Shown: positions 46,165 through 61,420 of the stretch, one piece after another
Position numbering within the stretch: the first letter of the stretch is position 1
Layout: every line of letters begins with the position of its first letter
NCBI RefSeq assembly: GCF_003260265.1
Contig: NZ_QITQ01000012.1
Span: 42,017-106,016 of the forward strand
DNA length: 64,000 nt
Reading direction: 5' to 3'
Source: Roseovarius amoyensis
Lineage (GTDB): Bacteria; Pseudomonadota; Alphaproteobacteria; Rhodobacterales; Rhodobacteraceae
Position numbers and translations under genes: made by a program
Notes under the pieces: model-generated
The model's database searches: none
Told to the model about the DNA's origin: nothing
Seen by the model: only the letters and a program-made list of their open reading frames with translations

Positions 46165-46437
46165 CTAGGTGATGACCTGCGGCGCCAGCATGCAAATCGT
46201 CAGCCCGACAACCTGCAACAGCAGGAACGGGATTGCTGCGCGGAAGATGTCTGACATCGGGATCGATTCAGGCGCCACCCCGCGCAGGTGGAAAAGCGCA
46301 TAACCGAACGGCGGTGACAGAAAGCTCATCTGCATGTTGACGAGGTAGAGCACCCCGAAGGACAGCAGCAGATCGTCAGGATTGTCAAAGCTGAACACCG
46401 CGGCACCGAGCAACTTGATCAAGATGTCGAGACCCAT
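46165..46437 (-). pseudogene. TRAP large permease remnant (DctM C-terminus)
   Basis: A 90-codon frame ends with MSFLSPPFGYALFHLRGV and IPFLLLQVVGLTICM, matching the last part of DctM proteins of about 430 residues. The sequence before YLVNMQMSF does not align with the normal N-terminus, so most of the gene is deleted. It follows, on the same strand, DctQ and DctP remnants. Confidence 0.75.
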
Positions 46438-46440
46438 GTA

Positions 46441-46539
46441 TCAGGCTCCCCTTGCGATGGTTCGGATGTCTTTCGGCAGCTACGACACGCCCTGCAGGAC
46501 CAGCAGCATGCCACCGGCGAACATCATCCATTTTATCGG
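46441..46539 (-). pseudogene. TRAP small permease remnant (DctQ C-terminus)
   Basis: On the minus strand one frame reads FAGGMLLVLQGVS, an in-frame TAG, then LPKDIRTIARGA and TGA. This is the final helix and tail of a DctQ protein. The premature TAG and lack of upstream DctQ sequence mark it as dead. The TGA sits 4 bases before the ATG of the DctM remnant, preserving the ancestral order. Confidence 0.7.
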
Positions 46540-46926
46540 CTAAAGCGGAACTTCCCATTCGTTGAGGCTGATTTCGCCCCAGCGGATTGCCGGATCGGTC
46601 CAGTCTTTCAACGACAACCCGCGCAGCATCTCGCCAAATCCCACCTGGCCGCGGACCCGGTCGGAGATGATCGAGTTGCCGGACGGCATCGCCACCTCGG
46701 TGATCAGTTCGACGTGGTCCTGGCTCAGCCGGGTGGCCTCGGTCCCATCGGCCTCGAACTTTTTCCAGGCGTCATGGTCGGCCTTATGGATTTCCGCGTA
46801 GTGATGGACCGAATAAGATTTCGTCTCTATCTCCACGAATTTCTGCATTTGCGGGCTCAGCGCGTTCCAGGGCGACATCCCGACGGTGATATCCATGAGG
46901 TCGACCGCCGGGCCGACATATCCGCC
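46540..46926 (-). pseudogene. TRAP binding protein remnant (DctP C-terminal part)
   Basis: The frame contains PAVDLMDITVGMSPWNALSP and YSVHHYAEIHKADHDAWKKF, typical of the last third of TakP/DctP-like binding proteins. The signal peptide and first lobes are missing. The extreme C-terminus after about 46720 no longer resembles the family. The adjacent 46927-47094 stretch is non-coding debris in which I recognise nothing. Confidence 0.65.
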
Positions 46927-47094
46927 GCGCGATCGAATGCGAACTGGTCTGGATCGGCAGCCACATTGAGAAGCCCGAACCACAGCCGATGGCCCCTATC
47001 TTGCGAGAGGCACCGCCGAGCTGGGCGCAGGCTGGCGCGCGCCGGCCCTGGTATCATTGACAGTGCGTGGTCCGCTGCTGTCCGGATCGTGCCT

Positions 47095-48240
47095 TCAAAG
47101 GCACGCCTCGAGCAGCTTCCTGGTGTTCTCCGGCGTCATTTCGATCGGATTGCCGCCTGTCGAAGGGTCGCGCAGCGCGGCCTCTACCAGGGTGTCGATG
47201 TCGGGGTTCGTGACGCCCAGATCGGTCAGCGTCTTGGGAATGCCAAGGCTGTTGTTGAACTGGTCCACGAAGGCGCAGAAGCCATCGAACCCGCCCTCGA
47301 TCCCCAGATATGCAGCCGCCGGGCCAAAGCGGTCGCGGATTGCGGGCGCGTTGAACTTCAGCACGGCGGGCATGCAGACAGCATTGGTGGTGCCGTGGTG
47401 GGTGTGGTGATGCGCGCCGATCGGGTGCGACAGGGCGTGAATGGCGCCCAGCCCCTTTTGAAAGGCCGTCGCACCCATGGCGGCCGCGCTCATCATGTTG
47501 GCGCGGGCCTCGATATCGGTGCCATCGGCATAGGCGCGCGGCAGGTGGTCCTTGACCAGGCGCATCCCTTCCAGCGCGATGCCTTGGCTCATGGGGTGGT
47601 AATGCGGGCTGGAGAAGGCCTCGACACAATGCGCAAAGGCATCGAGCCCGGTGCCGGCCGTGATGTGCCTGGGCATACCGACCGTCAGTTCCGGATCGCA
47701 GATCACGACCGAGGGCAGAATCTTGGGGTGAAAGATGATCTTTTTCTCGTGGGTCTGCGAATTGGTGATGACCGATGCGCGCCCCACCTCGGAGCCGGTG
47801 CCGGCGGTCGTGGGGACGGCCACGATGGGCAGAATTCCATCGGGGTCCGCGCGGGTCCACCAATCGCCGATATCCTCGAAATCCCAGATCGGGCGGGTCT
47901 GACCGGCCATGAAGGCGAGCGTTTTCGCCAGATCGAGGCCCGACCCGCCGCCAAAGGCGATGACGCCGTCATAGCCGCCGTCGCGGCAGACCTTCAGCCC
48001 CTCTTCGACATTCACGTCCGAGGGGTTGGGGTCGACCTCGGCAAAGAGCGCGCGGCCAAGACCGGCCTCTTCCATCAGGTCCAGCGTTCTGGTGGTGATG
48101 TCCATCGACTTCAGGCCACGGTCGGTAACCAGAAGCGGCTTGGACATGCCCGCAGCGCGGCAGGCATCGCCGATCTCTTTGATGCGCCCGGCACCGAAGC
48201 GAATGGATGTGGGATAGGACCAGTTGCCTGTAAGAGCCAT
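47095..48240 (-). CDS. iron-containing alcohol dehydrogenase
   Basis: This 381-residue protein from ATG 48240 has the group III ADH layout: NAD motif GGGSGLDLAKTLA (about 97-109), PTTAGTGSEV (about 142), and metal ligands in GLDAFAHCVEAF (near 200), HALSHPIGA and HHTHHGTTNAV (near 265-285). It is the last gene of a seven-gene operon with the aldehyde dehydrogenase 1 base upstream. The proposed role is oxidation of the hydroxyl of an imported (gamma-glutamylated) amino alcohol. Confidence 0.92.
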   Translation of the reverse strand: MALTGNWSYPTSIRFGAGRIKEIGDACRAAGMSKPLLVTDRGLKSMDITTRTLDLMEEAGLGRALFAEVDPNPSDVNVEEGLKVCRDGGYDGVIAFGGGSGLDLAKTLAFMAGQTRPIWDFEDIGDWWTRADPDGILPIVAVPTTAGTGSEVGRASVITNSQTHEKKIIFHPKILPSVVICDPELTVGMPRHITAGTGLDAFAHCVEAFSSPHYHPMSQGIALEGMRLVKDHLPRAYADGTDIEARANMMSAAAMGATAFQKGLGAIHALSHPIGAHHHTHHGTTNAVCMPAVLKFNAPAIRDRFGPAAAYLGIEGGFDGFCAFVDQFNNSLGIPKTLTDLGVTNPDIDTLVEAALRDPSTGGNPIEMTPENTRKLLEACL

Positions 48241-48241
48241 G

Positions 48242-49621
48242 TCAGACCTTCTTGAGATGATAGGATTTCGGCCGGGTAAGGGCCTGATAAGCGAGCTTTG
48301 ACAGCCCCGCCCCGCGACCGGTGTCCTTGCAGCCGGTCCAGCACAATGCCGGGTCGAGATAGTCACAGCGGTTCATGAAAACCGTGCCGGTTTCAAGCTG
48401 GTCGCCGATGCGTTCGGCGGCGGCGATGTCGCGTGTCCAGACCGAGGCGGTCAGGCCAAAGCGGCTGTCGTTCATCAGGCGGATCGCGGTGCCGTCATCG
48501 GCCACGGGCATGATGCCGACCACGGGGCCAAAGGATTCGTCCCGCATCACCCGCATGTCATGGGTGACATTCGTCAGAACCTGCGGTGTCACATAGGTGT
48601 TTTCGCCGTCATCGGCGTCCATGCGTTCGATATGGGCGGTCGCCCCGTCTGCCATGGCCTCGGCGATCTGGGCGCGCACCTCGCGGGCGAAACGGATATT
48701 GGCCATCGGTCCGAGGGTGGTTTCCGGATCCAGCGGATTGCCGAGCTTCTGGGCCTTGGTCCAGGCCACGGCCCTTTCGACGAAGGCGTCGAACAGGCTT
48801 TCGGCGACATAGATCCGTTCGATCCCGCAGCAGCACTGGCCGGCGTTGAAGATTGCGCCGTCCATCAGCGTGTCGACGGCTGCATCCAGGTCGGCATCGG
48901 CGCGCACATAGCCCGGATCCTTGCCGCCCAGTTCCGTGGATACGGGAATGAAGGTTCCCGCCGCGGCGCGTTCCATCGCCTGGCCCCCGCCGACCGAGCC
49001 GGTGAAATTCACGAAGTTCACCCGGCGCTCGGAGATCAGCGTGTTGGTGGTATCGTGGTCGATCACCAGGTTCTGGAAGACGTCCTCTGGCACGCCGGCC
49101 TCGTGGAATGCCTCGGCCAACCGTTCCCCGACCTGCAGCGTCTGGCTGGCGTGTTTCAGGATCACGCTGTTGCCGGCGATCAGGGCCGGCGCCACCGTGT
49201 TGATGGCCGTCATGTAGGGATAGTTCCATGGCGCCACGACCAGGACGACACCCCAGGGCACGCGTTTGATTATGCGCTGAAAGGCGTCGCTGTCCTCGAT
49301 CACGTCGGGTGCGAGGCCTTCGGCCGCGATGTCGGCCATGTGGGTCAGGCGTTCACTGAAACCGCCGAATTCCCCGCCATAGCGCACCGGGCGCCCCATC
49401 TGGTGCGCCAGCTCGACCGCCATGCGGTCGGTATCACGCCCGACGATCTCGTTGGCCTTGCGCACGATGGCGATGCGTTCATCAAGCGGCTTTGCGGCCC
49501 AGTCGGCCTGTGCGCGGCGCGCCTTTTCGGCGGCCTTGATTGCCTCGTCGCGTGAAAGAACCTTGCGCGAAAGATAAACCGATCCGTCGATCGGAGATAT
49601 GAGGTCGATAGTCTTGGTCAT
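48242..49621 (-). CDS. NAD(P)-dependent aldehyde dehydrogenase
   Basis: This 459-residue ALDH-superfamily enzyme has VVAPWNYPYMTAIN (about 130-143), catalytic Glu in STELGGKDPGYV (about 235) and catalytic Cys in FNAGQCCCGIERIY (about 266-279). It is slightly shorter than the usual 480-500. It starts 2 bases after the glutamine-synthetase-like gene and precedes the alcohol dehydrogenase, consistent with an alcohol-aldehyde-acid sequence. Confidence 0.93.
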   Translation of the reverse strand: MTKTIDLISPIDGSVYLSRKVLSRDEAIKAAEKARRAQADWAAKPLDERIAIVRKANEIVGRDTDRMAVELAHQMGRPVRYGGEFGGFSERLTHMADIAAEGLAPDVIEDSDAFQRIIKRVPWGVVLVVAPWNYPYMTAINTVAPALIAGNSVILKHASQTLQVGERLAEAFHEAGVPEDVFQNLVIDHDTTNTLISERRVNFVNFTGSVGGGQAMERAAAGTFIPVSTELGGKDPGYVRADADLDAAVDTLMDGAIFNAGQCCCGIERIYVAESLFDAFVERAVAWTKAQKLGNPLDPETTLGPMANIRFAREVRAQIAEAMADGATAHIERMDADDGENTYVTPQVLTNVTHDMRVMRDESFGPVVGIMPVADDGTAIRLMNDSRFGLTASVWTRDIAAAERIGDQLETGTVFMNRCDYLDPALCWTGCKDTGRGAGLSKLAYQALTRPKSYHLKKV

Positions 49622-49623
49622 GG

Positions 49624-50988
49624 TCAGGCCCTTTCAAATCCCCGCGCGATTTCCCAGTCGGTCACGACGGCATCGAACGCCTCCTGTTCGACTTCGGCGG
49701 CGCGGGTGTAGTGATCGACCACCCAATTGCCCATGGTCTTTCGCAGCATTTCCGAGTTGCGCAAGGTTTCGGTCGCCGCCCGCAGCGTATGGGGCAGCAC
49801 GGGGATATCGTCCATCTTGTAGATGTCCCCGGTGACGGGCGGCGTCAGTTCCAGCCCTTCCTCGATACCCGAAAGACCGGCAGCCAGTTGCGACGCGCAG
49901 GCGAGGTAGGGGTTGATGTCTGAACCCGGCGTGCGGCACTCGATCCGCACGCCCTTGGTTCCGTCGCCGACCAGGCGATAGCACGCGGTGCGGTTGTCGA
50001 TGCTCCAGGCGATCCTAGTGGGGGCAAAGGTGCCCGGCATGAGCCGCTTGTAGCTGTTGATGTAGGGGGCGAGGAAATAGGTGATGTCGGTGGAATATTT
50101 CAGCAGGCCCGCGACATAGCTTTTCATCGTGTCCGACATGGTCAGGTCCGCGTCGGGGTCGTGGAAAGCGGGCGCATCCCCCTTGAGAAGCGATTGGTGA
50201 ATATGCGCGGCAGAGCCGACCTTGTCGTGGTGCCACTTCGGCAGGAAGGTCGCCGCGTGCCCGTGCTGGTTTGAAATCTCCTTGATCGCCTGTTTCGCGA
50301 TGGTGTGATGATCGGCGCAAAGCAGGGCATCGGCATAGCGGATGTTCAGCTCTTCCTGTCCGGTCTCGGCCTCGCCCTTGGAGTTTTCCACCGGCACGCC
50401 CGCCTCGACCAACAGATTGCGGATCGGGCGCATCACGTGTTCTTCCTTCGTGGTCTGAAGGATGTTGTAGTCTTCGTTGTAGCCGCTGATGGGGGTGAGG
50501 GGCCTGTACCCGTCGCGGCGAATTTCATCGTATGTCTTTTCGAACAGAAAGAATTCGAGCTCGGTCGCCATCACGGGGTCGAACCCCATGGCGCGGGCGC
50601 GCGCGACCTGCGCCTTCAGGATCTGGCGCGGGCTGTGCGGGACGGGTTCGTGGGTGTGGTGATCCATGATGTCGCACAGCACCAGCGCGGTGCCTTCGAG
50701 CCAGGGAATGCGGCGCAGCGTCGAAAGATCGGGCTTCATCACATAGTCGCCGTATCCCTGTTCCCACGATGTTGCGGCGAAACCGTCCGGTGTTGCCATC
50801 TCGAGATCCGTGGCCAGCAGGTAGTTGCAGCAATGCGTTTCTTCGTGTCCGGACTCGATGAAGTTCGTCACATGGAACCGCTTGCCCATGAGCCTGCCCT
50901 GCATGTCGACAAGGCAGACAAGAACCGTGTCGATCTCGCCCCTGGCGGCAAGTTCCTTGAGGGCGGCGAAGCTGAGATTGGCGGTCAT
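49624..50988 (-). CDS. glutamine synthetase family gamma-glutamyl-amine ligase (PuuA-like)
   Basis: This 454-residue protein starts at ATG 50988, with GGAGAC upstream. It has the GS catalytic features ATELEFFLF (about 144), GEAETGQEELN and KVGSAAHIHQSL (about 270), and RIECRTPGSDINPYLA near 357. The long open frame running further upstream into dctP is not used. PuuA, IpuC and GlnA4-type enzymes attach glutamate to amines. Adjacency to ADH, ALDH and an amidohydrolase supports an amino-alcohol or amine substrate rather than ammonia. Confidence 0.88.
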   Translation of the reverse strand: MTANLSFAALKELAARGEIDTVLVCLVDMQGRLMGKRFHVTNFIESGHEETHCCNYLLATDLEMATPDGFAATSWEQGYGDYVMKPDLSTLRRIPWLEGTALVLCDIMDHHTHEPVPHSPRQILKAQVARARAMGFDPVMATELEFFLFEKTYDEIRRDGYRPLTPISGYNEDYNILQTTKEEHVMRPIRNLLVEAGVPVENSKGEAETGQEELNIRYADALLCADHHTIAKQAIKEISNQHGHAATFLPKWHHDKVGSAAHIHQSLLKGDAPAFHDPDADLTMSDTMKSYVAGLLKYSTDITYFLAPYINSYKRLMPGTFAPTRIAWSIDNRTACYRLVGDGTKGVRIECRTPGSDINPYLACASQLAAGLSGIEEGLELTPPVTGDIYKMDDIPVLPHTLRAATETLRNSEMLRKTMGNWVVDHYTRAAEVEQEAFDAVVTDWEIARGFERA

Positions 50989-51010
50989 TTGTGGTCTCCG
51001 TGACAGAATT

Positions 51011-51035
51011 GGAGCGCCCCGTTGCGGGGCGCTCC
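51011..51035 (-). terminator. GC hairpin between dctP and the GS-like gene
   Basis: Perfect 11-base arms (51011-51021 and 51025-51035) surround a 3-base loop, located after dctP and before the glutamine-synthetase-like gene on the minus strand. On that strand AATTCTG follows, not a U-run. A stabilising 3' hairpin or partial terminator for the binding-protein mRNA is likely. Confidence 0.6.
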
Positions 51036-51053
51036 GGCTCTTTTGGGTGTGGC

Positions 51054-52091
51054 TTATTCGAAGTTGTAGGGAACCCCGGCCTGGTTGATGACCGAGTTGT
51101 AGTCGCGGAAGATGCCGATGATCTTTTCGTGCACCTCGCCCTCTTGCGCGACCTCGTTCCAGAACTCCTTGGCGGCGTTTTCCACCTCGGCCCATTCGCC
51201 CGGCGGCACCGAGCGCAGCTCCAGCTGGTCGCCATTGGCGCGCAGCGCGGCCTCGCCGCCCCAATACCACTGGTTGCGATAGGTGTGGCTGGCCTCGATC
51301 CCGGCCATCACCACGGATTTCAGGTGATCGGGCAGTTCGGCCCACCGTTCCTGGTTGGCGAACCAAGATCCGATCCATGCGCCCGAGATGTTGTTGGTCA
51401 GGAAGTAGTCGGTGACGTTCGCCCACCCCACGGTGTAATCCTCGGTGATGCCCGACCATGCCATGCCATCCAGTTCACCGGTCTGAACGGCGACCTCGGC
51501 ATCCTCGTAGGGAATGTTCACCGGGATGACGCCGAACTTGGCAAGGAAACGTCCCGCGGTCGGGAAGGTATAGAGCTTGAGACCGTCCAGGTCGGCGACC
51601 GAGGTGATTTCCTTTTTGGTGTTGAAGTTGCACGGGTCCTGCCCGGCGGCCGAAAGCCATTGCACGCCGACCTTGGCGTATTCATCGCGCCAGATATCAG
51701 CCAGCCCGTACTGGTTGAACAGCACCGGCACATCCAGGATGTGCTTGGTGGCAAAGGGGAAATAACCGCCAAAGACCCGCAGCGGCGTGGGTGAGGCCAT
51801 CGAGTCGTCGTCCGAGTGAACACCGTCGATCGTGCCGCGCTGAAGCGCCTGGAACAGCTCGCCTGTCGGTACGATCTGATCGGCATAAAACAGCTCGATC
51901 TCGAGTTCGCCATTGGCATTGGCGTTGATGTAGTCGATCGCAGGCTTGGTCACATGCTCGCCCAGCGCGCCGCCGGCATAGGTCTGAAAGCGCCACTTGA
52001 TTGCGCTTTGCGCCTTGACGATGGCGGGACTGGCCAGGGTTGCGGCCCCGGCAACGCCGGCCGTTCTCAGAAAATTGCGTCGTGTCGTCAT
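51054..52091 (-). CDS. dctP: TRAP substrate-binding protein, Tat signal (DctP family)
   Basis: This 345-residue protein has a twin-arginine signal TTRRNFLRTAGVAGAATLAS. Body motifs are ELFQALQRGTIDGVHSDDD near 75-95 and DLDGLKLYTFPTAGRFLAKF near 165. The unusual order in this operon is dctQ, dctM, then dctP. It lies 60 bases after dctM and precedes the GS-like ligase. The substrate is inferred to be an amine or amino alcohol. Confidence 0.92.
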   Translation of the reverse strand: MTTRRNFLRTAGVAGAATLASPAIVKAQSAIKWRFQTYAGGALGEHVTKPAIDYINANANGELEIELFYADQIVPTGELFQALQRGTIDGVHSDDDSMASPTPLRVFGGYFPFATKHILDVPVLFNQYGLADIWRDEYAKVGVQWLSAAGQDPCNFNTKKEITSVADLDGLKLYTFPTAGRFLAKFGVIPVNIPYEDAEVAVQTGELDGMAWSGITEDYTVGWANVTDYFLTNNISGAWIGSWFANQERWAELPDHLKSVVMAGIEASHTYRNQWYWGGEAALRANGDQLELRSVPPGEWAEVENAAKEFWNEVAQEGEVHEKIIGIFRDYNSVINQAGVPYNFE

Positions 52092-52151
52092 TTTCGTACC
52101 CTCTCTGTTAGGTTCGGATGCTCGACTGCCTTTTGACCGAGGTCTTTTTTT

Positions 52152-53477
52152 CTAGTTTCCATAGACATACCCCGGCAACCAAAGCGCGATCTCGGGGAAG
52201 ACCATGATTATGGTCAACGCGACCACCATCACCAGCACGAAGGGCAGGATGGAGGTATAGATATCCCTCAGCGTAATCTCTGGCGGCGCCATGGCGCGCA
52301 TCAGGAACAGGTTATAGCCGAAGGGCGGTGTCATGTAGGCAATCTGCGTGGTGATCGTGTAGAGCACACCATACCATATCAGGTCGAAACCCAGTGCCCC
52401 GACCAGAGGCACATAGAGCGGCGCCACGATGACCAGCATGGCTGTATCGTCCAGGAAGGTGCCCATGACGATAAAGGAAAGCTGCATCAGGATCAGGATG
52501 ACCCAGGGGCTGAAACCCAGCTGTTCGGTGAACAGGCTTTCGATTGCCTTGACCGCGCCCAGCCCGTCGAACACCGCGCCAAAGGCGAGGGCGGCCAGGA
52601 TGATCCACATGAACATGCACGATATGCCAAGCGTCTTGCGCACCGAGGCTTCGAACACCCGGCGTGTCATGCGCCCCTTGAAGACGGCAGCCAGGAATGC
52701 CGCGATCGCGCCGATGGACGACGATTCAACCAGCGATGTCCAGCCATTCACGAAGGGCACCATCATCGTAAAGAAGATGAACAGCGGCAAAAGCCCGGCG
52801 CGAAGCAGCCTGAGCTTTTCGGCCATCGGAATGTCGCGCTCTTCCTTGGGCAGGATCGGGCCGAGTTGCGGGTTCAGCCGGCAACGGATGACGATGTAGA
52901 GAACGAACAGCCCCGCCATCATCAGCCCCGGCAGCACCCCTGCCAGCCAGAGCTGGCCAACCGGCTGGCGGGCGATCATGGCGTAAAGCACCAGCACGAC
53001 CGAGGGTGGAACCAGGATGCCAAGGGACGACCCGGCCTGTATCACGCCGGTGACCATTCGCTTGTCATAGCCCCGTTTCAAAAGCTCGGGCAACGCGATG
53101 GTCGCACCGATGGCCATGCCTGCGACCGACAGCCCGTTCATGGCTGAAATCAGCACCATCAGCCCGATCGTGCCGACGGCCAGCCCGCCGGACAGCCCGC
53201 CCATCCAGACATGGAACATGCGGTATAGATCGTCGGCGATGCGGCTTTCGGACAGGACATAGCCCATGAAGATGAACATCGGCAGCGTCAGCAGCGGATA
53301 CCATTTCATCAGCTTGATCGCCGCCGCGAAGCCCAAGTCATAACCGCCCCGGTCCCCCCAGAGGAAAAAGGCCGCCATCACGGCCACAAAACCGATGGCG
53401 CCGAACACGCGTTGCCCGGTCAGCAGCATCAGCATCATTGATGCAAACATCAGCGCGGCGATAGCTTCATAAGGCAT
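52152..53477 (-). CDS. dctM: TRAP large permease (DctM family)
   Basis: This 441-residue protein has full-length DctM topology, with motifs ISAMNGLSVAGMAIGATIA (about 110), GSSLGILVPPSVVLVLY (about 150) and AYMTPPFGYNLFLM near 390. It shares one base with the dctQ stop. It is intact and forms the uptake system with its neighbours, in contrast to the decayed TRAP genes at 46165-46926. Confidence 0.94.
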   Translation of the reverse strand: MPYEAIAALMFASMMLMLLTGQRVFGAIGFVAVMAAFFLWGDRGGYDLGFAAAIKLMKWYPLLTLPMFIFMGYVLSESRIADDLYRMFHVWMGGLSGGLAVGTIGLMVLISAMNGLSVAGMAIGATIALPELLKRGYDKRMVTGVIQAGSSLGILVPPSVVLVLYAMIARQPVGQLWLAGVLPGLMMAGLFVLYIVIRCRLNPQLGPILPKEERDIPMAEKLRLLRAGLLPLFIFFTMMVPFVNGWTSLVESSSIGAIAAFLAAVFKGRMTRRVFEASVRKTLGISCMFMWIILAALAFGAVFDGLGAVKAIESLFTEQLGFSPWVILILMQLSFIVMGTFLDDTAMLVIVAPLYVPLVGALGFDLIWYGVLYTITTQIAYMTPPFGYNLFLMRAMAPPEITLRDIYTSILPFVLVMVVALTIIMVFPEIALWLPGYVYGN

Positions 53478-54055
53478 CAGGCGTCGTTCCCCGTGGTCTC
53501 GATTTCGCCGTGATCGACGTCCTTCGGCCCCATGTCATATCCCCTTATCCTGAGGATATCCTTGAAGAATTCGCTGACCGCCTGGAGGAGCATCAGGAAA
53601 ATGCCGATGACCATGATCGTCTTGATCGGCCACAGATAGGGCCGCCAGACGCTTGAACTGCGCTCGCCGCCGTATTTGAAGGAATACATCAGGCTGTCCC
53701 AGCCGCCCCAGAGCAGAAAGAAGAGGTAAACGACCAGGAACAGAACGGTGATGGCATCGACCTGCGCCTTGCGCCGTTCGCTCCATTCGCCGTAAAGCAG
53801 GTCCATGCGCACGTTCGACCCCATCTGGATCGAATAGGGGCCGCCGAGAATGTAATAGGCGACCATCGCGAACTGCGCCATCTCCAGCGTCCAGAGTGAG
53901 GGGTTGATGCCAAAGCCCATGTCGCTGCCGACTTTGGTAAGGGACGACCAAAGCAGGATCGCCATCATCACGAAGATGCCGTACATCACGATGCGCCCGA
54001 TCCATCGGTTGATGCGGTCGATCACCGCGACGTATTTCAGCATCAATCGGGTCAT
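53477..54055 (-). CDS. dctQ: TRAP small permease (DctQ family)
   Basis: This 192-residue protein has four membrane segments (about 18-38, 58-76, 96-118, 145-165). It overlaps the amidohydrolase gene by 4 bases (ATGA) and dctM by one. The C-terminal tail is acidic and about 25 residues long. Confidence 0.9.
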   Translation of the reverse strand: MTRLMLKYVAVIDRINRWIGRIVMYGIFVMMAILLWSSLTKVGSDMGFGINPSLWTLEMAQFAMVAYYILGGPYSIQMGSNVRMDLLYGEWSERRKAQVDAITVLFLVVYLFFLLWGGWDSLMYSFKYGGERSSSVWRPYLWPIKTIMVIGIFLMLLQAVSEFFKDILRIRGYDMGPKDVDHGEIETTGNDA

Positions 54056-54825
54056 GCTGCCGTGGCTTCCAGGTCAAGTGATGTGACCAGCATTTCGGCG
54101 AGGAGCGAAGAGGTTTGCGTCACCTCGGCCTCGCTGCCAAGAAGGTCGTTGCGCACCTCGATCATCACGTTGTCCAGCCCACGGGCTATGGCATGACGTC
54201 TGAGGGTATGGGTCACCCCGTCGCTGGCCGAATAGGGTTCGTTCAGCTCGGTCAAGAGCGGGGTATCGGCATTCTCCAGCATTGCCTCGGCAAGGCGGGC
54301 GTCGGCATCGTGCAAAAGCCCGATCTGCGTCTTGCGGTCCTTTCCGTCCCAGACGGGCGTAAAGCTGTGAACCGTGACGAGGGTCGGCGGTGCATCGAAC
54401 CCATCAAGCACGTCGGAAACCGTCGCATGAAACGGCTCATAGACCTCGGCCGTGCGTGCGGCCCTGTCGGATTCTGACAGATCGCGGTTTCCCGGCACCG
54501 GGATTTCGCCACTCTGGACGGGCATCGAACCGGGCGCTTCGGGCGGGCGGTTCAGGTCATAGACCAGCCGTGAGACCCTTGCGACGACAAGGGGGGCGTC
54601 CAGCCTTCGAGACAGGTCCCGGGCCAGCAACTCGGCCCCGATGTCCCACACGGCATGGGAAAACCGATGCTCTTCGGCCAGCCCGAGCGTGCCCAGAGAG
54701 GGCGGGATAAAGGCGCTGGCGTGTTCGCAGACAAGACAGATCGGAGCCCGGCCGCCGGCGTTGACGATTTCGGCGGGGTGTCCGTCTTCGGGCGTCAGAA
54801 TCTGGCCTGCGTTTGCTTCGGTCAT
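54052..54825 (-). CDS. N-formylglutamate amidohydrolase family protein
   Basis: This 257-residue protein matches the HutG/FGase fold: ICLVCEHASAFIPPSLG (about 29-45), HAVWDIGAELLARDLSRRL (about 57-75) and LVTVHSFTPVWDGKDR (about 148). It is first in a seven-gene operon with TRAP QMP, GS-like ligase, ALDH and ADH. In this context it may hydrolyse a gamma-glutamyl amide at the end of the pathway rather than N-formylglutamate. No hut genes are present. Confidence 0.82.
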   Translation of the reverse strand: MTEANAGQILTPEDGHPAEIVNAGGRAPICLVCEHASAFIPPSLGTLGLAEEHRFSHAVWDIGAELLARDLSRRLDAPLVVARVSRLVYDLNRPPEAPGSMPVQSGEIPVPGNRDLSESDRAARTAEVYEPFHATVSDVLDGFDAPPTLVTVHSFTPVWDGKDRKTQIGLLHDADARLAEAMLENADTPLLTELNEPYSASDGVTHTLRRHAIARGLDNVMIEVRNDLLGSEAEVTQTSSLLAEMLVTSLDLEATAA

Positions 54826-54871
54826 GACGTGACATTAGTGGCGTCCACCCAAAGGCTGTCAAGAATTTTTG

Positions 54872-54898
54872 GTAGATGTTTTTACGATGGCGATCTAC
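54872..54898. promoter_or_regulatory. inverted repeat GTAGAT-N15-ATCTAC upstream of RpiR gene
   Basis: Six-base perfect arms (54872-54877 and 54893-54898) lie in the divergent gap between the amidohydrolase operon and the RpiR gene, an AT-rich stretch. It is a candidate operator for the adjacent regulator. Confidence 0.4.
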
Positions 54899-54929
54899 TT
54901 TGTAGCAAATGCTTCAAAAAGGGGCGAAT

Positions 54930-55793
54930 GTGAAACGCACCGTGGTCGTCAAGGACAGGCTCAAGGATCAGGCGGGCGCGCTGACACCCGCCGAGCGCCT
55001 GCTGTCGGACGTGCTGTTGCGCGACTATCCGATGTCGGGGTTGCAATCGATCACCAAACTGGCGGACGCGGCCAATGTTTCGACACCCACCGTTATCCGG
55101 CTGGCGCGCAAGCTGGGATTCGATGGTTTCCCCGAGATGCAGGAGGCCCTGCGCGAAGAGGCGTCGGCCCAGATCAAGAGACCGATCCTGAAGCGCGAAG
55201 GCTGGCCGCAGGGGCGCAAGGATTCCCCGGCGTTCCGCAGCTTTGCCGAAGCCGTGTTCGACAATCTCAACCAGACCATCGAACGCCTGGACCCCGCGAC
55301 ATTCGACGCCGTGGCCAGGATCCTGGCCGACACGAGGCGCAACCTGTTCCTGCTGGGCGGGCGTATCACGCGCTCGAACGCGGATTATTTCTTCAACCAT
55401 CTTCAGATCGTCCGCCCCGGCGTGACGTTGTTGTCGCAATCTCCGAACGTCTGGCCGCAATACCTTATCGACATGGGGCCGCGTTCGGTTCTCGTGATTT
55501 TCGATATTCGCCGCTACGAGGCGGATCTGGCGCGGCTTGCGGGTCTGGCCAAGGAACGGGGCGTTGTCATCATCCTGTTCACCGATCAATGGGGGTCGCC
55601 GATCTCGAAAACGGCCGATCACGTGATCAATGCGCTGGTCGAGGTGCCGTCAAGCTGGGACTCGACCCTCGGGATCAACCTGATCGTGGAGGCGCTGATC
55701 GCCGCCATCCAGACAAAGCGTCTGGAAAAAGCGCGCGACCGGATCGAAGCGCTGGAAGACATGTTCCGCTCTACCCGGATATTCCGAAAGTGA
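54930..55793 (+). CDS. RpiR-family transcriptional regulator
   Basis: This 287-residue protein has an N-terminal helix-turn-helix with ITKLADAANVSTPTVIRLAR and a C-terminal SIS domain (NLFLLGGRITRSNADYF near 145; VVIILFTDQWGSPISKTAD near 215). AAAAGGGG lies before GTG 54930. ATG 54909 gives seven more residues but has no ribosome site. It is divergent from the amidohydrolase-TRAP-ligase operon and probably controls it. SIS domains usually bind a phosphosugar, although several RpiR proteins of amine loci exist. Confidence 0.86.
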   Translation: MKRTVVVKDRLKDQAGALTPAERLLSDVLLRDYPMSGLQSITKLADAANVSTPTVIRLARKLGFDGFPEMQEALREEASAQIKRPILKREGWPQGRKDSPAFRSFAEAVFDNLNQTIERLDPATFDAVARILADTRRNLFLLGGRITRSNADYFFNHLQIVRPGVTLLSQSPNVWPQYLIDMGPRSVLVIFDIRRYEADLARLAGLAKERGVVIILFTDQWGSPISKTADHVINALVEVPSSWDSTLGINLIVEALIAAIQTKRLEKARDRIEALEDMFRSTRIFRK

Positions 55794-55805
55794 ACTTGCG
55801 GATGT

Positions 55806-55826
55806 TGCGCGCAGAGCCTGCGCGCA
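55806..55826. terminator. bidirectional hairpin between convergent genes
   Basis: TGCGCGCAG (55806-55814) and CTGCGCGCA (55818-55826) have a 3-base loop, placed between the convergent ends of the RpiR and phosphatase genes. There is no T-tract. Confidence 0.5.
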
Positions 55827-55858
55827 CCCATGCCGCTATGCACTGGCAGGCATGATGC

Positions 55859-56647
55859 TCAGCGCAGCGCGGCAAGCGCCTCGTGATGGAGTTCGGCACT
55901 CGCCGCGGCGATCACATGGCCGTCGGATTGCAGGGTCAGGTCCTGCCCGTTCCAGTCGGTGATCACGCCCCCGGCGCCCTTGACCACCGGAACAAGCGCC
56001 ATGAAGTCGTATGGGTAAAGGTCCATCTCGAACACGATGTCCACATGGCCCGACGCCAGCAGCCCGTAGGCGTAGCAGTCCCCCCCGAATCGGCGCATGC
56101 CGGCCTTGCGGGAAAGCAGCTCGAACCGGTCCAGCCCCGCCGCGTCGAAGATGTCGGGCGATGTCGTATACAGTATTGCCTCGTCCAGCCGGGTCTTGCC
56201 GCTGGTGCGGCAGGGTGCGCCGTTGAATGTGGACGGGTTGCCGCGCACCCCCATCCAGCGGTCGCCCGTCGCGGGTATCGATATGGTGCCAAGTTCGGGC
56301 ACCCCGTCGGTCAGGCAGGCGATCAGCGTGCCGAATGTTGGCATCCCGGAAACGAAGCTCTTGGTGCCGTCGATCGGGTCGAGCACCCAGACATGCGAGG
56401 CATCCAGACGGGCGTTTTCGTATTCTTCCCCCAGAATGCCGTGGGTCGGAAATTGCCGGGTAATTCTTTCACGCATGGCCGTTTCGATGGCGCGATCGGC
56501 CTGCGTGACCGGCGACTGGTCCGCCTTGTGTTCGACGTTCAGCGGCTTGCGGAAATAGCTCATCGCCATGGCATCGGTCGCATCCGCCATCTCATCGGCA
56601 AATCGGGCCAGCATCGCGATGTCGTCTGACGTCGTGGGGCTCTGCAT
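55859..56647 (-). CDS. inositol-monophosphatase/HisN-family phosphatase
   Basis: This 262-residue Mg-dependent phosphatase has GEEYEN (about 73), WVLDPIDGTKSF (about 87-98) and a final DCYAYGLLASGHVDIVFE region. It resembles histidinol-phosphatase HisN and inositol monophosphatases. ATG 56647 has TAAGGA at proper spacing; ATG 56653 lies directly against it. It is divergent from an ABC importer and DeoR regulator, so it may strip phosphate from the imported compound. Confidence 0.88.
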   Translation of the reverse strand: MQSPTTSDDIAMLARFADEMADATDAMAMSYFRKPLNVEHKADQSPVTQADRAIETAMRERITRQFPTHGILGEEYENARLDASHVWVLDPIDGTKSFVSGMPTFGTLIACLTDGVPELGTISIPATGDRWMGVRGNPSTFNGAPCRTSGKTRLDEAILYTTSPDIFDAAGLDRFELLSRKAGMRRFGGDCYAYGLLASGHVDIVFEMDLYPYDFMALVPVVKGAGGVITDWNGQDLTLQSDGHVIAAASAELHHEALAALR

Positions 56648-56707
56648 GATCATTCCTTATCTCGGGCGGCAGCGTGCCACGGCGATCTGTTCGAAAATTA
56701 ATCGTAG

Positions 56708-56739
56708 ACAAAACACACAAAAGTGCAAGACTACACAAA
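56708..56739. promoter_or_regulatory. ACAAA direct repeats in the divergent control region
   Basis: ACAAA occurs at 56708, 56717 and 56735 (offsets 0, 9 and 27), inside the larger ACACAAA repeats at 56715 and 56733. On the minus strand, TTGCAC and TACGAT 16 bases apart form a promoter for the phosphatase. DeoR proteins bind spaced direct repeats, so this is a candidate site for the regulator at 60665. Confidence 0.35.
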
Positions 56740-56854
56740 TATCCCCATGCTGCGCCGCATGCGGCGTGGCAATGAGAGCGGGCCGTGCAAGGGCCGCACC
56801 CATCCGAGGCAGGCACTGATTCAGGAATACCTGGACCAACAAGGAGAGATGAAA

Positions 56855-57862
56855 ATGAAAACATGGACCAAGTTTACAGCGGTTTCACTGGCCGCCCTTG
56901 GCGTGGCCGCGATGGCCAGCGCCGATGAGATCACCGTCTACACCGCGCTCGAGGAAGAAGAGATCGGCGCCTATATCGAGGCCGCGCAGCAGGCGATGCC
57001 CGATACTGAGATCAACGTGCTGCGCCTGTCCACCGGCAAGCTGGGCGCACGGCTGCTGGCCGAGGCGGGCAACCCGCAGGCCGACGTGATCTGGGGCTGG
57101 GCCGTCAGCGCCATGATGGATCCGCAAATCCTGGAAATGGTCGAACCCTACGAGGCCAAGGGTGTCGAGGTTCTTCCGGCCAAGTTCCGCGATGAGGACG
57201 GCAAGTGGTTTGCGCCCATCGGTTACATGGGCGCCTTCTGCGTGAACACCGCGCGGCTGGAGGAAAAGGGCCTTCCCATGCCCGCCAGTTGGAAGGACCT
57301 GGAAGACCCGGCATTCAAGGACGAGATCCTCATGCCCGATCCCAATTCCTCGGGCACCGGTTATCTGCATGTGAACGCCGTGCTGCAAAGCATGGGCGAA
57401 GAGGCCGGCTGGGCACAGCTTGCGGCTGTTGACCCCAACATGGCGCAGTATACCTCGTCGGGGTCCAAGCCGTGCAAGTCCGCGCGCGTCGGGGAATACA
57501 CCGTCGGGATTTCGCTTGCCTTCACCGCGATGCAGTCCATCGAAGAAGGCTATCCGCTGGCGATGGTCTTTCCCGAGGGCGGCGTGGGGTATGAACTCGA
57601 AGCCTCTGCCCTGATGGCCAGCTCCGACGACAAGGAAGGGGCGAAAGCGTTCCTCGACTGGACGATGTCGGAAGAGGCGATCCAGCTTTACCAGCAGTAC
57701 AAGGCGCTCATCACCGTGCCGGGCGTCGATGCCTCTGCCGCGGCCGAGGCCGCAGGGCTGCCGGCCGACATCTCGACCGTTCTGGCGGACATAGATTTCG
57801 TCGAGGCGGCCGAGAACCAGACCGCCGTCAAGGAAGCCTGGAAAGAAAAGTTCGGCCGCTGA
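56855..57862 (+). CDS. ABC substrate-binding protein, Fbp/AfuA-like (family 1)
   Basis: This 335-residue protein starts at ATG 56855 with AAGGAGA at good spacing (ATG 56849 is too close). Signal peptide TKFTAVSLAALGVAAMASA is followed by ITVYTALEEEEIGAYIEAAQ. The class includes ferric iron, 2-aminoethylphosphonate and hexose-phosphate (AfuA) binders. The iron-ligand Tyr pair of FbpA is not evident. It is first in the operon of binding protein, ATPase, double permease and DeoR. Confidence 0.88.
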   Translation: MKTWTKFTAVSLAALGVAAMASADEITVYTALEEEEIGAYIEAAQQAMPDTEINVLRLSTGKLGARLLAEAGNPQADVIWGWAVSAMMDPQILEMVEPYEAKGVEVLPAKFRDEDGKWFAPIGYMGAFCVNTARLEEKGLPMPASWKDLEDPAFKDEILMPDPNSSGTGYLHVNAVLQSMGEEAGWAQLAAVDPNMAQYTSSGSKPCKSARVGEYTVGISLAFTAMQSIEEGYPLAMVFPEGGVGYELEASALMASSDDKEGAKAFLDWTMSEEAIQLYQQYKALITVPGVDASAAAEAAGLPADISTVLADIDFVEAAENQTAVKEAWKEKFGR

Positions 57863-57948
57863 CAACGGCCCGGGCGGCGCCGGTGGCGCCGCCCTGTGCG
57901 TCTGGCCCTTCGCGGGCCGGCGCGACCATGACGGGAGATCTGAACGAC

Positions 57949-58989
57949 ATGTACCTGAGCGTCAGCAACGCCACCAAGACCTATGGTACCTTCAAGGCCC
58001 TCGACAGTGTGTCGATCGAAATTGAGCAGGGCGAATTCGTCTGCCTGCTGGGGCCTTCGGGATGTGGCAAGACAACGCTCTTGCGGCTGATTGCCGGGCT
58101 GTCAGAGCTGGATGGCGGCGATATCCTGCTGGAGGGCAGGGCGCTGTCGGACCAGCCGGCGCGCAAGCGCGGCTTTGGAATCGTGTTCCAGTCCTATTCT
58201 CTCTTTCCCAACATGACCGTGGCTGAAAACATCGGCTACGGGCTAAAGATACGCGGCACCCCCCGCGCGGAGGTGTCGAAACGGGTGGCGGAACTGCTGG
58301 CGCTGGTAAAGCTGCCGCATGTCGCCGACAGTTTTCCCGGCCAGCTTTCCGGCGGCCAGCAGCAGCGGATCGCGCTGGCGCGGGCCATTGCTGTCGATCC
58401 GCGCGTGCTGTTGCTGGACGAGCCGCTTTCGGCGCTGGATGCCAAGGTGCGTGCCGAACTGCGCAGCGAGATCCGTCATGTGCAAAGGACGCTGGGCATT
58501 CCCACGCTGATGGTGACCCACGACCAGGAAGAGGCGCTGGCCCTGGCGGACAAGATCATCTGCATGAACCACGGCGTTGTCGTTCAGTCCGGCACGCCCG
58601 AAGACCTGTATCACCGTCCGGCGACGCGTTTCGTGGCCGACTTCATGGGGATCAGCAACCTTGTCCCGGCCGAGCCCATCAGCCGCGAATACCCGGATCT
58701 GATGAACACCCGGCCGGCGGGGGCGGATGACAGCCACGTCGCCTGCATCCGGCCCGAACAGATCGGCATGACCCCGGACCCCGAGGGGAACGCCACCGTG
58801 CGCAGCATCAGCTTTCTGGGTAACCTGCGCCGGCTGGAGGTCGACAGCCCGATCGGGCCGCTGGTGGTCGAAACCCACGGGGGCAATCCCTGCCGCGAGG
58901 GCGAGCGGGTCAGCCTGAACATCGCGCCCGAGGCCTGTATCTGGGTCGAGGATGATATGCCCGGCAAACCGGTCGGGGCCGCGGCATGA
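57949..58989 (+). CDS. ABC ATPase, Fbp/PotA-like
   Basis: This 346-residue protein from ATG 57949 (GGGAG upstream; ATG 57928 possible) has Walker A GPSGCGKTT, signature QLSGGQQQRIALARA, Walker B LLLDEPLSALD and a C-terminal TOBE domain. It pairs with the 560-residue permease, whose start overlaps its stop (ATGA). Confidence 0.93.
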   Translation: MYLSVSNATKTYGTFKALDSVSIEIEQGEFVCLLGPSGCGKTTLLRLIAGLSELDGGDILLEGRALSDQPARKRGFGIVFQSYSLFPNMTVAENIGYGLKIRGTPRAEVSKRVAELLALVKLPHVADSFPGQLSGGQQQRIALARAIAVDPRVLLLDEPLSALDAKVRAELRSEIRHVQRTLGIPTLMVTHDQEEALALADKIICMNHGVVVQSGTPEDLYHRPATRFVADFMGISNLVPAEPISREYPDLMNTRPAGADDSHVACIRPEQIGMTPDPEGNATVRSISFLGNLRRLEVDSPIGPLVVETHGGNPCREGERVSLNIAPEACIWVEDDMPGKPVGAAA

Positions 58990-60668
58990 GCGTGACGCAG
59001 ACGACCACCACGCCCACGCGCCGGTGGGCGGATGCCGACCGCCTGCTGACGATCGTCTGCGTCGGGTTGCCGCTGCTTGGTCTTGTGCTGTTCTTCCTCT
59101 ACCCGATGCTGATCGTCTTCATGCGGTCCGTGGCGGTCGGGGATGGCTACGGGCTGGGGAATTACAGCAAGGTCCTTGGCTCTGCCGGGTTCTGGCGCGC
59201 GACATGGCATTCGCTGTTCATGGGCAGCGCCACCACCGCCCTGAGCGTCTTTCTGGGCTTCATCATCGCGCACGGGCTTTATCGCTGCGCGTTCCCCGGC
59301 AAGTGGCTGATCCGCAGCGTGATCGTCCTGCCGCTGCTGGCGCCCTCGCTGGTGCAGGCGCTGGGGCTGATATTCCTGCTGGGGCGCAATGGCGTCATCA
59401 GCCGCGCGCTGGGCATCGAGATCGACATCTACGGGTTCTGGGGGCTGCTGATCGCCAACACGCTTTACGCACTGCCGCAGGCGGTGATGATCATCGGGGC
59501 GGCGCTGGTGCTGCTGGATGCGCGAACCTATGAGGCGGCAGAGGTCATGGGCGCCTCGCCGACGCGGCAGTTCCGCGACCTGACCCTGCCGGCGGCGCGC
59601 TTCGGCATCCTGAACGCGGCCTTTGTCTGTTTCACCATCACCATCACAGATTTCGGCAACGCGGCGGTGATCGGGGGTGACTATTCGGTGCTCGCGACCG
59701 AGATCTATTCCCAGGTGGTCGGGCAGCGGAATTTCAACATGGGGGCCGTGGTCGGCATCATGCTGTTGCTGCCCACCGTGGTGTCCTATGCCATCGAGCG
59801 TCAGGCGATGAAACGCCAGGAGACGGGGCAACAAGTCGGGCAGGTGCGTTTCCAGCCGGCATTCACGCCGGCACGCGACCTGCCGATGGCGCTGCTGTCG
59901 CTGCTGATCTGTGCCGGCATCGTCGCGGTGATCGGCATCGTGGTCTATGCCAGCTTCGTCACGCTCTGGCCCTACAACATGGCGCTGTCGGTCAAGCATT
60001 ACGACATTACCCTGGCGGGGGGTTATTCCTCGCTCTGGATGACCATCGTGATCTCGCTCATGGCGGCGGCGGGCGGCACGCTGGCGGTGTTCCTGCTGGC
60101 GCTGGGGCTGCGGCGGCTTCCGCGGGCGGTGGCACAACCGATCCAGATCCTGGCTGCCATGCCGGCGGCGGTGCCGGGAATGGTGCTGGGCCTGGCCTAT
60201 ATCCTGACCTTCAACTCTACGGCGACGCCGCTTTATCTGCTTTACGGCACGGCCGCGCTGATCGCGATCGTGAACTTCTACCATTACCACACGCAGGCCT
60301 TCCTGACCCTGATGACGGGTTTCCGCCAGCTGCCCCGCGCATTCGAAGAGGCGGCCGGCTGTCTTGGCGCGGGGCTGGCGCGAACGGCGGTCGACATCGT
60401 CGCCCCGTTCGTCGCGCCAATGTTGATATCGGTGTTTTTCTTCCTGTTCATGCGCTCCATGGTCACGTTGTCGGCGGTCGTCTTTCTCACGACCCCGCAT
60501 CTGAGCGTCGCTGCCGTCACGATCATGCGGCTGGATGACGCCGGGCTGACATCTCAGGCGGCGGCCTTTTCGACCTGCGTGATGGCGGTTGTCTGCCTCG
60601 CCCTGCTGGGGATGAAGGCGACACTGGCCATGATGGGGCGGCGCAACCGGATGAATGGCGCGTCATGA
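58986..60668 (+). CDS. ABC permease with two fused domains (FbpB/PhnV-like)
   Basis: This 560-residue protein contains two permease halves, each with an EAA-type loop: YEAAEVMGASPTRQFRDLTL near 180 and FEEAAGCLGAGLARTAVDIV near 455. About twelve helices replace the usual homodimer, as in FbpB and AfuB transporters. It overlaps the ATPase stop and the DeoR start by ATGA. Confidence 0.92.
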   Translation: MSVTQTTTTPTRRWADADRLLTIVCVGLPLLGLVLFFLYPMLIVFMRSVAVGDGYGLGNYSKVLGSAGFWRATWHSLFMGSATTALSVFLGFIIAHGLYRCAFPGKWLIRSVIVLPLLAPSLVQALGLIFLLGRNGVISRALGIEIDIYGFWGLLIANTLYALPQAVMIIGAALVLLDARTYEAAEVMGASPTRQFRDLTLPAARFGILNAAFVCFTITITDFGNAAVIGGDYSVLATEIYSQVVGQRNFNMGAVVGIMLLLPTVVSYAIERQAMKRQETGQQVGQVRFQPAFTPARDLPMALLSLLICAGIVAVIGIVVYASFVTLWPYNMALSVKHYDITLAGGYSSLWMTIVISLMAAAGGTLAVFLLALGLRRLPRAVAQPIQILAAMPAAVPGMVLGLAYILTFNSTATPLYLLYGTAALIAIVNFYHYHTQAFLTLMTGFRQLPRAFEEAAGCLGAGLARTAVDIVAPFVAPMLISVFFFLFMRSMVTLSAVVFLTTPHLSVAAVTIMRLDDAGLTSQAAAFSTCVMAVVCLALLGMKATLAMMGRRNRMNGAS

Positions 60669-61420
60669 TGTGGGCAAAGGAACGCCACCAACGGATACTG
60701 TCCATGCTGGCGGCGAACCGGCAGGTGCGTGCCAATGACCTTGCGGAACTGCTGAACGTCTCGCGGGAAACCATTCGGCGCGACTTGCTCGACCTTGAGA
60801 AGTCCGGCCAGGTCAACCGTGTTCACGGCGGCGCGGTCGTGCCCGAGCGCCGCACCGAAGAACCGTTTCGCCAGCGTATGACCGCCCGGTTGCGCGCCAA
60901 GTCCGAAATCGCGCGCAAGGCAGTCGGGCTGATCGAGCCGGGGCAGACGGTGCTGGTGGACGCGGGCACGACGACGACCATCTTTGCGCAAGAACTGGCG
61001 AAACTCACCGGTGTCTCGGTCGTCACCAATTCACTGGACATTGCGACGACGCTTCAGGGCGCAGGCAAGGAGGTGCTGTTGCTCGGCGGCAGGATGGCCA
61101 CGGAGGTGCCGTCGACGGTGGGGGAGCTCACCTTGTCCGAGATCCGCCGGTTTCGCGCCGACATCTGCTTTTCGGCGCCGGTGGCGGTGCATCCGCGGAT
61201 GGGCGTGTTCTTTTACGACCTGCAGGAGGCCGAGATCGCCGTGGCGATGGCGGCACAGGCCCCAAAAAGGGTGATCCTGGCCGACCACAGCAAGCTTGGC
61301 GAAACCAGCCGGGTGCGCTCATGGCTGATGGAGGAGATCGACACCCTGGTGACGAGCTCGGCCGCGCCGAAAGATCTGATCGCATCCTTCCGCGAGGCGG
61401 GCGTTGAGGTCCTGGTCTGA
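60665..61420 (+). CDS. DeoR/GlpR-family regulator
   Basis: This 251-residue protein has an N-terminal helix-turn-helix (ANDLAELLNVSRETIRRDLL, about 23-42) with RVHGGAV just after. The effector domain begins KSEIARKAVGLIEPGQTVLVDAGTTT. DeoR proteins generally sense phosphorylated sugars. It is translated by ATGA overlap at the end of the importer operon, so it probably autoregulates it. Confidence 0.9.
   Translation: MMWAKERHQRILSMLAANRQVRANDLAELLNVSRETIRRDLLDLEKSGQVNRVHGGAVVPERRTEEPFRQRMTARLRAKSEIARKAVGLIEPGQTVLVDAGTTTTIFAQELAKLTGVSVVTNSLDIATTLQGAGKEVLLLGGRMATEVPSTVGELTLSEIRRFRADICFSAPVAVHPRMGVFFYDLQEAEIAVAMAAQAPKRVILADHSKLGETSRVRSWLMEEIDTLVTSSAAPKDLIASFREAGVEVLV

Follow-up and report, generated by a model that had tools for sequence, protein, structure and literature searches.

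An eto operon has been described in Phaeobacter sp. MED193 (MED193_10021-10056), where the genes are listed as RpiR, GGAH, EtoV, EtoW, EtoX, ETAGA, GAADDH and GETADH (PMC10132767). According to the same source, MED193 EtoX binds ethanolamine with a dissociation constant of ~7.9 uM, and five proteins of the operon are elevated on phosphorylethanolamine; that paper cites Vetting et al. A version from Chromohalobacter and Agrobacterium that combines a tripartite ATP-independent periplasmic (TRAP) importer with an N-formylglutamate-amidohydrolase-type enzyme is attributed to Vetting et al. 2015 in papers citing that work, and ethanolamine has been called a particular surprise among TRAP ligands (PMC5812351). 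The same steps are given for Streptomyces, where those past the first are mostly deduced (PMC6529630, PMC9397018). Here we describe a gene cluster of Roseovarius amoyensis, located at 47095-55793 of a 64,000-nucleotide stretch of contig NZ_QITQ01000012.1 (hereafter the window, to which all coordinates refer) in a host genome of 3.8 Mb and 85 contigs. In gene content and order the cluster agrees with the eto system, and we are highly confident that it serves TRAP import of ethanolamine and its predicted conversion into glycine with the amine masked by glutamate. Its features are as follows.

54909..55793, plus strand: RpiR-family regulator (HTH_6 and SIS), divergent; from Pfam, with RpiR also in the MED193 gene list
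54901..54916, no strand: candidate RpiR operator, an imperfect inverted repeat TGTAGC-N4-GCTTCA (consensus TGTAGC-N4-GCTACA); predicted
54052..54825, minus strand: GGAH, predicted gamma-glutamylglycine amidohydrolase (FGase family); PF05013, PDB 2odf, far under the HutG cut-off
53477..54055, minus strand: EtoV, TRAP small membrane subunit (DctQ); Pfam
52152..53477, minus strand: EtoW, TRAP large membrane subunit (DctM); Pfam
51054..52091, minus strand: EtoX, TRAP binding protein, predicted ethanolamine binder; PDB 4uab/4xf5, E217, Y174
51009..51037, no strand: 13-base-pair G+C-rich stem-loop in the interval between etoX and the ligase gene; stem-loop scan
49624..50988, minus strand: ETAGA, predicted glutamate-ethanolamine ligase resembling glutamine synthetase (GS); PDB 5dm3 at 1e-201, GS flap Glu replaced by Phe
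48242..49621, minus strand: GAADDH, aldehyde dehydrogenase (ALDH); PF00171
47095..48240, minus strand: GETADH, iron-type alcohol dehydrogenase (ADH); PF00465

Seven genes on one strand and the divergent regulator fill the interval, and from the amidohydrolase gene (54825) to the ADH gene (47095) neighbors overlap or lie at most ~65 bases apart. An earlier note on this DNA had named a TRAP importer, a GS-like ligase, an iron ADH, an ALDH and an amidohydrolase, and every one of these families is present with a Pfam match above cut-off: Fe-ADH PF00465 (2e-50), Aldedh PF00171 (2.2e-117), Gln-synt_C PF00120 (6.4e-97), DctP PF03480 (1.9e-22), DctM (3.2e-65), DctQ (4.1e-19) and FGase PF05013 (1.6e-39). 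The RpiR regulator it placed on the opposite strand is there too, with helix-turn-helix and SIS matches above cut-off, and its outer limits of 47095 and 55793 are exact. The ligase queries (Pfam, NCBIfam and PDB searches) and the ADH queries (Pfam, NCBIfam) began 3-4 codons 5' of the likely starts. The arrangement found here, a divergent RpiR gene followed by GGAH-EtoV-EtoW-EtoX-ligase-ALDH-Fe-ADH, has the same eight families in the same order as the MED193 gene list. The four enzyme families listed for Chromohalobacter salexigens in PMC9397018 are likewise those of the window.

The binding protein carries the strongest evidence on the substrate. Its best PDB match is 4uab/4xf5 (6.5e-144), gapless across EtoX residues 27-344, and the next TRAP proteins follow at ~1e-17; by this margin EtoX falls in the Csal_0678/EtoX clade and not in another TRAP clade. 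The 4uab structure is C. salexigens Csal_0678 with ethanolamine, in which Glu220 forms a platform for the amine and the hydroxyl (PMC12410723), and Csal_0678 is reported to lack an equivalent of Arg-147, the residue tied to carboxylate ligands (PMC4646407). We placed SiaP position 147 at EtoX Tyr174, using an offset of 27 that is the same at both ends of the PDB match. Across 85 EtoX proteins (the window, 80 related loci and four plasmid loci), position 174 is Tyr in 81 and Phe in four, and E217, the Glu nearest to the reported platform residue, is invariant. We assume that E217 corresponds to Glu220, taking the three-residue difference as one of numbering. DctP proteins encoded elsewhere in this genome (11) have Arg (10) or Ser (1) at position 174, and none has Glu at position 217, where one has Asp. 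Thus, EtoX lacks the carboxylate-binding Arg and, given the assumed offset, possesses the acidic platform residue. A carboxylate or sugar acid as TRAP substrate was rejected because EtoX lacks the conserved Arg and groups with 4uab. By analogy with MED193 EtoX and Csal_0678, EtoX of this strain is predicted to bind ethanolamine. The protein also has a weak match to a twin-arginine translocation (Tat)-type signal.

The ligase is most similar to PDB 5dm3 (1e-201, 674 bits), which we take to be Csal_0679 of C. salexigens, and then to 11zs (6e-163); ordinary glutamine synthetases score ~1e-58. The eto ligases belong to the GS fold family and keep its metal and glutamate ligands, with Val, Ile or Ala at the N264 equivalent. 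In the ethanolamine-specific GlnA4 of Streptomyces, the GS flap residue Glu327 is replaced by Phe331 (PMC6529630), and the flap position is also Phe in 75 of 77 eto ligases, the other two having gaps there. The flap Glu is the only one of the three ammonium-site residues named in PMC6529630 (E327, D50 and Y179) that differs in eto ligases. The sole solved match of the amidohydrolase is PDB 2odf (Atu2144, 9e-70), and its score against the model of HutG N-formylglutamate deformylase is 22 bits, where the cut-off is 279.

Together, these assignments suggest the following route. EtoX would capture ethanolamine and EtoVW would move it into the cell, where the GS-like ligase would use ATP to join it to glutamate, giving gamma-glutamylethanolamide. 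The iron-type ADH would then oxidize the alcohol to an aldehyde and the ALDH would convert the aldehyde to gamma-glutamylglycine, from which the FGase-type amidohydrolase would free glycine and regenerate glutamate. The GlnA4 pathway of S. coelicolor (SCO1611-1615) resembles this scheme, with gamma-glutamylethanolamide, an aldehyde, gamma-glutamylglycine and glycine as its compounds and a flap Phe in its ligase (PMC6529630). Unlike the window, the GlnA4 cluster is described with a permease, orf4, as its putative ethanolamine transporter (S. coelicolor lacks it) instead of a TRAP system; a short-chain dehydrogenase (orf2), a glutamine amidotransferase (orf5) and the repressor EpuRI are listed as well. 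SCO1615 is nevertheless assigned in the text to the formylglutamate amidohydrolase family (PMC6529630, PMC9397018). The Eut pathway, based on the ethanolamine ammonia-lyase EutBC, acts on the substrate predicted for the window operon. However, no EutB, EutC or shell-protein family occurs among the operon proteins by Pfam, and EutB has no match in the window's genome.

We examined conservation in the best 80 of 422 relatives, which are therefore close ones. Gene order was counted in 68 of these loci, the other 12 being dropped with a contig end too near the importer. All eight genes occur in the order RpiR (opposite strand), GGAH, EtoV, EtoW, EtoX, ligase, ALDH, ADH in 54 of the 68, which excludes chance clustering. 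The four top-ranked loci of the search are all from Roseovarius (EtoX 93-96% identical), and two Ruegeria loci reach 94-96%. With one genome taken per genus, 108 of the 198 family genomes sampled encode the binding protein, a spread that fits the published view of lipid-headgroup ethanolamine as an important marine nutrient.

Several points weigh against this interpretation. The order deviates in 14 of the 68 loci: five lack RpiR and GGAH, one lacks RpiR, two lack the ALDH and one the ADH; two have the importer with RpiR and GGAH alone, two have the importer alone, and one shows an apparent EtoV/EtoW swap. The swap is an artefact of open-frame ends because direct matches put EtoV before EtoW in all 79 loci that have both. 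In the ligases, our own alignment has the ammonium-site residues D50 (77/77) and Y179 (75/77, two gaps) retained, so the residues alone would be compatible with glutamine synthesis, and the residue evidence is mixed. Neither the ADH nor the ALDH has an NCBIfam equivalog above cut-off (for the ALDH, among the best 25 of 45 matches), and both families are broad; we treat the missing equivalogs as neutral for the pathway, neither helping nor hurting it. Equivalence with the operon of MED193, a different organism, rests on the published gene list, and in the literature we came across no kinetic data on the ligase or the amidohydrolase of a TRAP operon. The enzyme activities of this strain are predictions from homology, gene order, residues and conservation.

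Five loci (L014, L015, L018, L021 and L030) have an importer with no adjoining ligase although the contig continues; a sixth, L065, also has no ligase match and was left out of this count, its contig stopping just past the importer. All five genomes encode a ligase beyond the fetched stretch, at 66-82% identity; seven genomes were searched, and in the other two the ligase is part of the operon. In G230, one of the five, an amidohydrolase of 53% identity adjoins this ligase. A search for the amidohydrolase in eight genomes gave matches at 1e-20 in five (34-53% identity) and none in the three small genomes. With identities of 34-53%, some of these matches may be paralogs.

The same pathway logic could serve a different main substrate, such as alaninol, serinol, 1-amino-2-propanol or 3-aminopropanol, and end in another amino acid or carbonyl product. 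The breadth of the ADH and ALDH families would allow this, and the MED193 EtoX assays, as presented in the portion of PMC10132767 consulted, covered ethanolamine and phosphorylated compounds alone. Yet a close relative of EtoX was crystallized with ethanolamine, the MED193 operon proteins rise on phosphorylethanolamine, and in Chelatococcus sp. CO-6 an importer of 52% identity lies near genes for ethanolamine ammonia-lyase; we consider another amino alcohol improbable. Still less credence is due to a hydroxyl-free monoamine or polyamine, such as isopropylamine or putrescine, handled by a ligase of the PuuA or IpuC type. PuuA gamma-glutamylputrescine synthetase does appear among the NCBIfam matches of the ligase, but at 213 bits, where the cut-off is 650. 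The structure 4hpp, named PauA7 in PMC6529630, scores 62 bits against 674 for 5dm3 (IpuC was outside this comparison). An alcohol-oxidizing enzyme, moreover, suits a hydroxyl-bearing amine alone, and Pfam finds no amine oxidase family among the operon proteins. On the PDB and NCBIfam scores, a polyamine pathway was rejected.

It is similarly hard to credit that the ligase gene encodes an ordinary glutamine synthetase and came by chance to lie beside a carboxylate TRAP importer. The retained D50 and Y179 speak for such an enzyme, whereas the flap Glu has become Phe and four further PF00120 genes occur in the genome, the normal flap Glu being present in one of the four. The missing carboxylate Arg of EtoX and the arrangement shared by 54 of 68 loci argue against a chance cluster. 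Most tests thus favor ethanolamine, the ligase residues being mixed. The earlier note had left the substrate open among several amines; ethanolamine with the proposed chemistry is the most likely answer, which settles that question, and alaninol, aminopropanol and polyamines are less likely. Its interpretation holds in part. Import, gamma-glutamylation, two oxidations and hydrolysis are what has been published for this gene set, but the note also stated that it knew of no version with a TRAP importer and an N-formylglutamate amidohydrolase. That version is already published in Chromohalobacter and Agrobacterium and, in the same order and with RpiR, in Phaeobacter, so the novelty claim falls. 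The operon is a conserved, previously described system and no new pathway. Since ethanolamine is most likely and the operon type is published, no claim of discovery is warranted. What our analysis adds is small: a candidate operator for RpiR and a second lineage of the importer.

The divergent RpiR is predicted to govern the operon through a site resembling TGTAGC-N4-GCTACA in the shared promoter gap. An inverted repeat in this gap, which separates rpiR from the amidohydrolase gene, lies at 54901-54916 and matches the pattern at 11 of 12 positions. We derived the pattern from two Marivita loci, which makes the count across loci a test after the fact. At least 10 of 12 positions match in 21 of the 26 loci with an RpiR of 55% or higher identity to that of the window and in one of the 38 with a more distant RpiR; in controls away from the promoter, 28 of 5000 stretches reach this level. 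The repeat therefore tracks the RpiR type, which suggests that it is the RpiR operator, though many of the loci are close kin. The candidate operator includes the ATG at 54909, and GTG 54930 may be an alternative RpiR start. In a literature search on RpiR, ethanolamine, TRAP and a binding motif, PMC10132767 alone was on the subject among the matches listed. We also considered a consensus sigma-70 promoter in the divergent gap and rejected it: a scan of 46900-55900 gave one site, outside the gap, and the pattern TCTTGACA-N15-19-TANNNT occurs in 3 of 65 gap regions. The stem-loop at 51009..51037 may set transcript levels; the region has seven terminator-like sites against 6.5 in shuffles, i.e., no excess.

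Seven plasmid regions were read, two of them (L106 and L108) unannotated and read by translated comparison. The classic eight genes are present in the plasmid loci of Paracoccus denitrificans PD1222 and Shinella (60 and 73% identity). A second EtoX lineage, at 52-54% identity, is found in L103-L107 (Tistrella, Chelatococcus, Paracoccus albus, Neorhizobium and Rhizobium ACO-34A), and in all five of these plasmid loci a DeoR-type regulator, a GlpK-like kinase and two flavin adenine dinucleotide (FAD) proteins replace classic genes. Models for the kinase and FAD proteins were scanned in two loci, those of Chelatococcus and Paracoccus albus. The kinase is nearest to glycerol kinase (375 bits in Chelatococcus and 373 in Paracoccus albus, well below the cut-off of 590), and one FAD protein is nearest to type 2 glycerol-3-phosphate oxidase (197 and 206 bits, well below the cut-off of 460). 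The Chelatococcus sp. CO-6 locus (L104) has eutBC near its EtoX, and the Paracoccus albus locus (L105) has a ligase-ALDH-ADH set. All seven plasmid EtoX proteins have Glu at 217 and Tyr or Phe at 174. A literature search combining a TRAP transporter, glycerol kinase and ammonia-lyase turned up nothing on the subject among the matches listed, judged by title and the start of the abstract. We tentatively propose, as an idea that is rather doubtful at this stage, that the EtoX importer is an interchangeable front end and that second-lineage operons with DeoR/GlpR, the GlpK-like kinase and the glycerol-3-phosphate-oxidase-like FAD pair use glycerol and ethanolamine, both halves of the phosphatidylethanolamine headgroup, together.

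Directly downstream of the ADH gene, on the minus strand at 46168-46983, lie what appear by eye to be degraded TRAP-like remains with stops between the pieces. The piece at 46540-46983 resembles a binding-protein C-terminus and has no Pfam match, and that at ~46168-46438 resembles the final part of a large TRAP subunit; at the DNA level these remains match neither the genome's other DctP loci nor L006-L010. On the other side, an inositol-monophosphatase family gene (55859-56653, minus strand; 290 bits against a cut-off of 275 for the HisN histidinol-phosphatase model) sits between the eto regulator and a set of ATP-binding cassette (ABC) genes at 56723-60668 on the plus strand. The ABC genes are nearest to 2-aminoethylphosphonate type 2 models, below all cut-offs (score/cut-off in bits: PhnS2 333/393, PhnT2 410/458, PhnU2 485/593), and a DeoR-like regulator, identified by eye, follows at 60665-61420. 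A search of 18 other genomes of the genus gave no match to the window's ABC ATPase at 1e-120; in most of them, scoring covered 67 of the first-look candidates. A functional link between the eto operon and the 2-aminoethylphosphonate-type ABC genes is not supported, as HisN or PhnS2 matches occur at any position of the fetched stretch in only three of 80 loci (L022, L026 and L068).

In three loci assigned to Rhodobacteraceae or Marinovum, an ABC transporter immediately precedes etoVWX on the same strand (L022 3771-8016, L026 3771-8016 and L076 3-2686), its genes occupying the place that RpiR and GGAH have elsewhere. The PhnS2-like binding protein is ~41% identical in L022 and 40% in L026, and the L076 record starts inside the ATPase gene. 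Another ABC transporter follows the eto ADH gene on the same strand, ~2.4 kb past the ADH start, in 13 of the 80 loci (L008, L009, L011, L012, L013, L017, L019, L033, L035, L036, L067, L074 and L075). Compared with the window, its ATPase is ~38-46% identical to the PhnT2-like protein and its permease ~24-27% identical.

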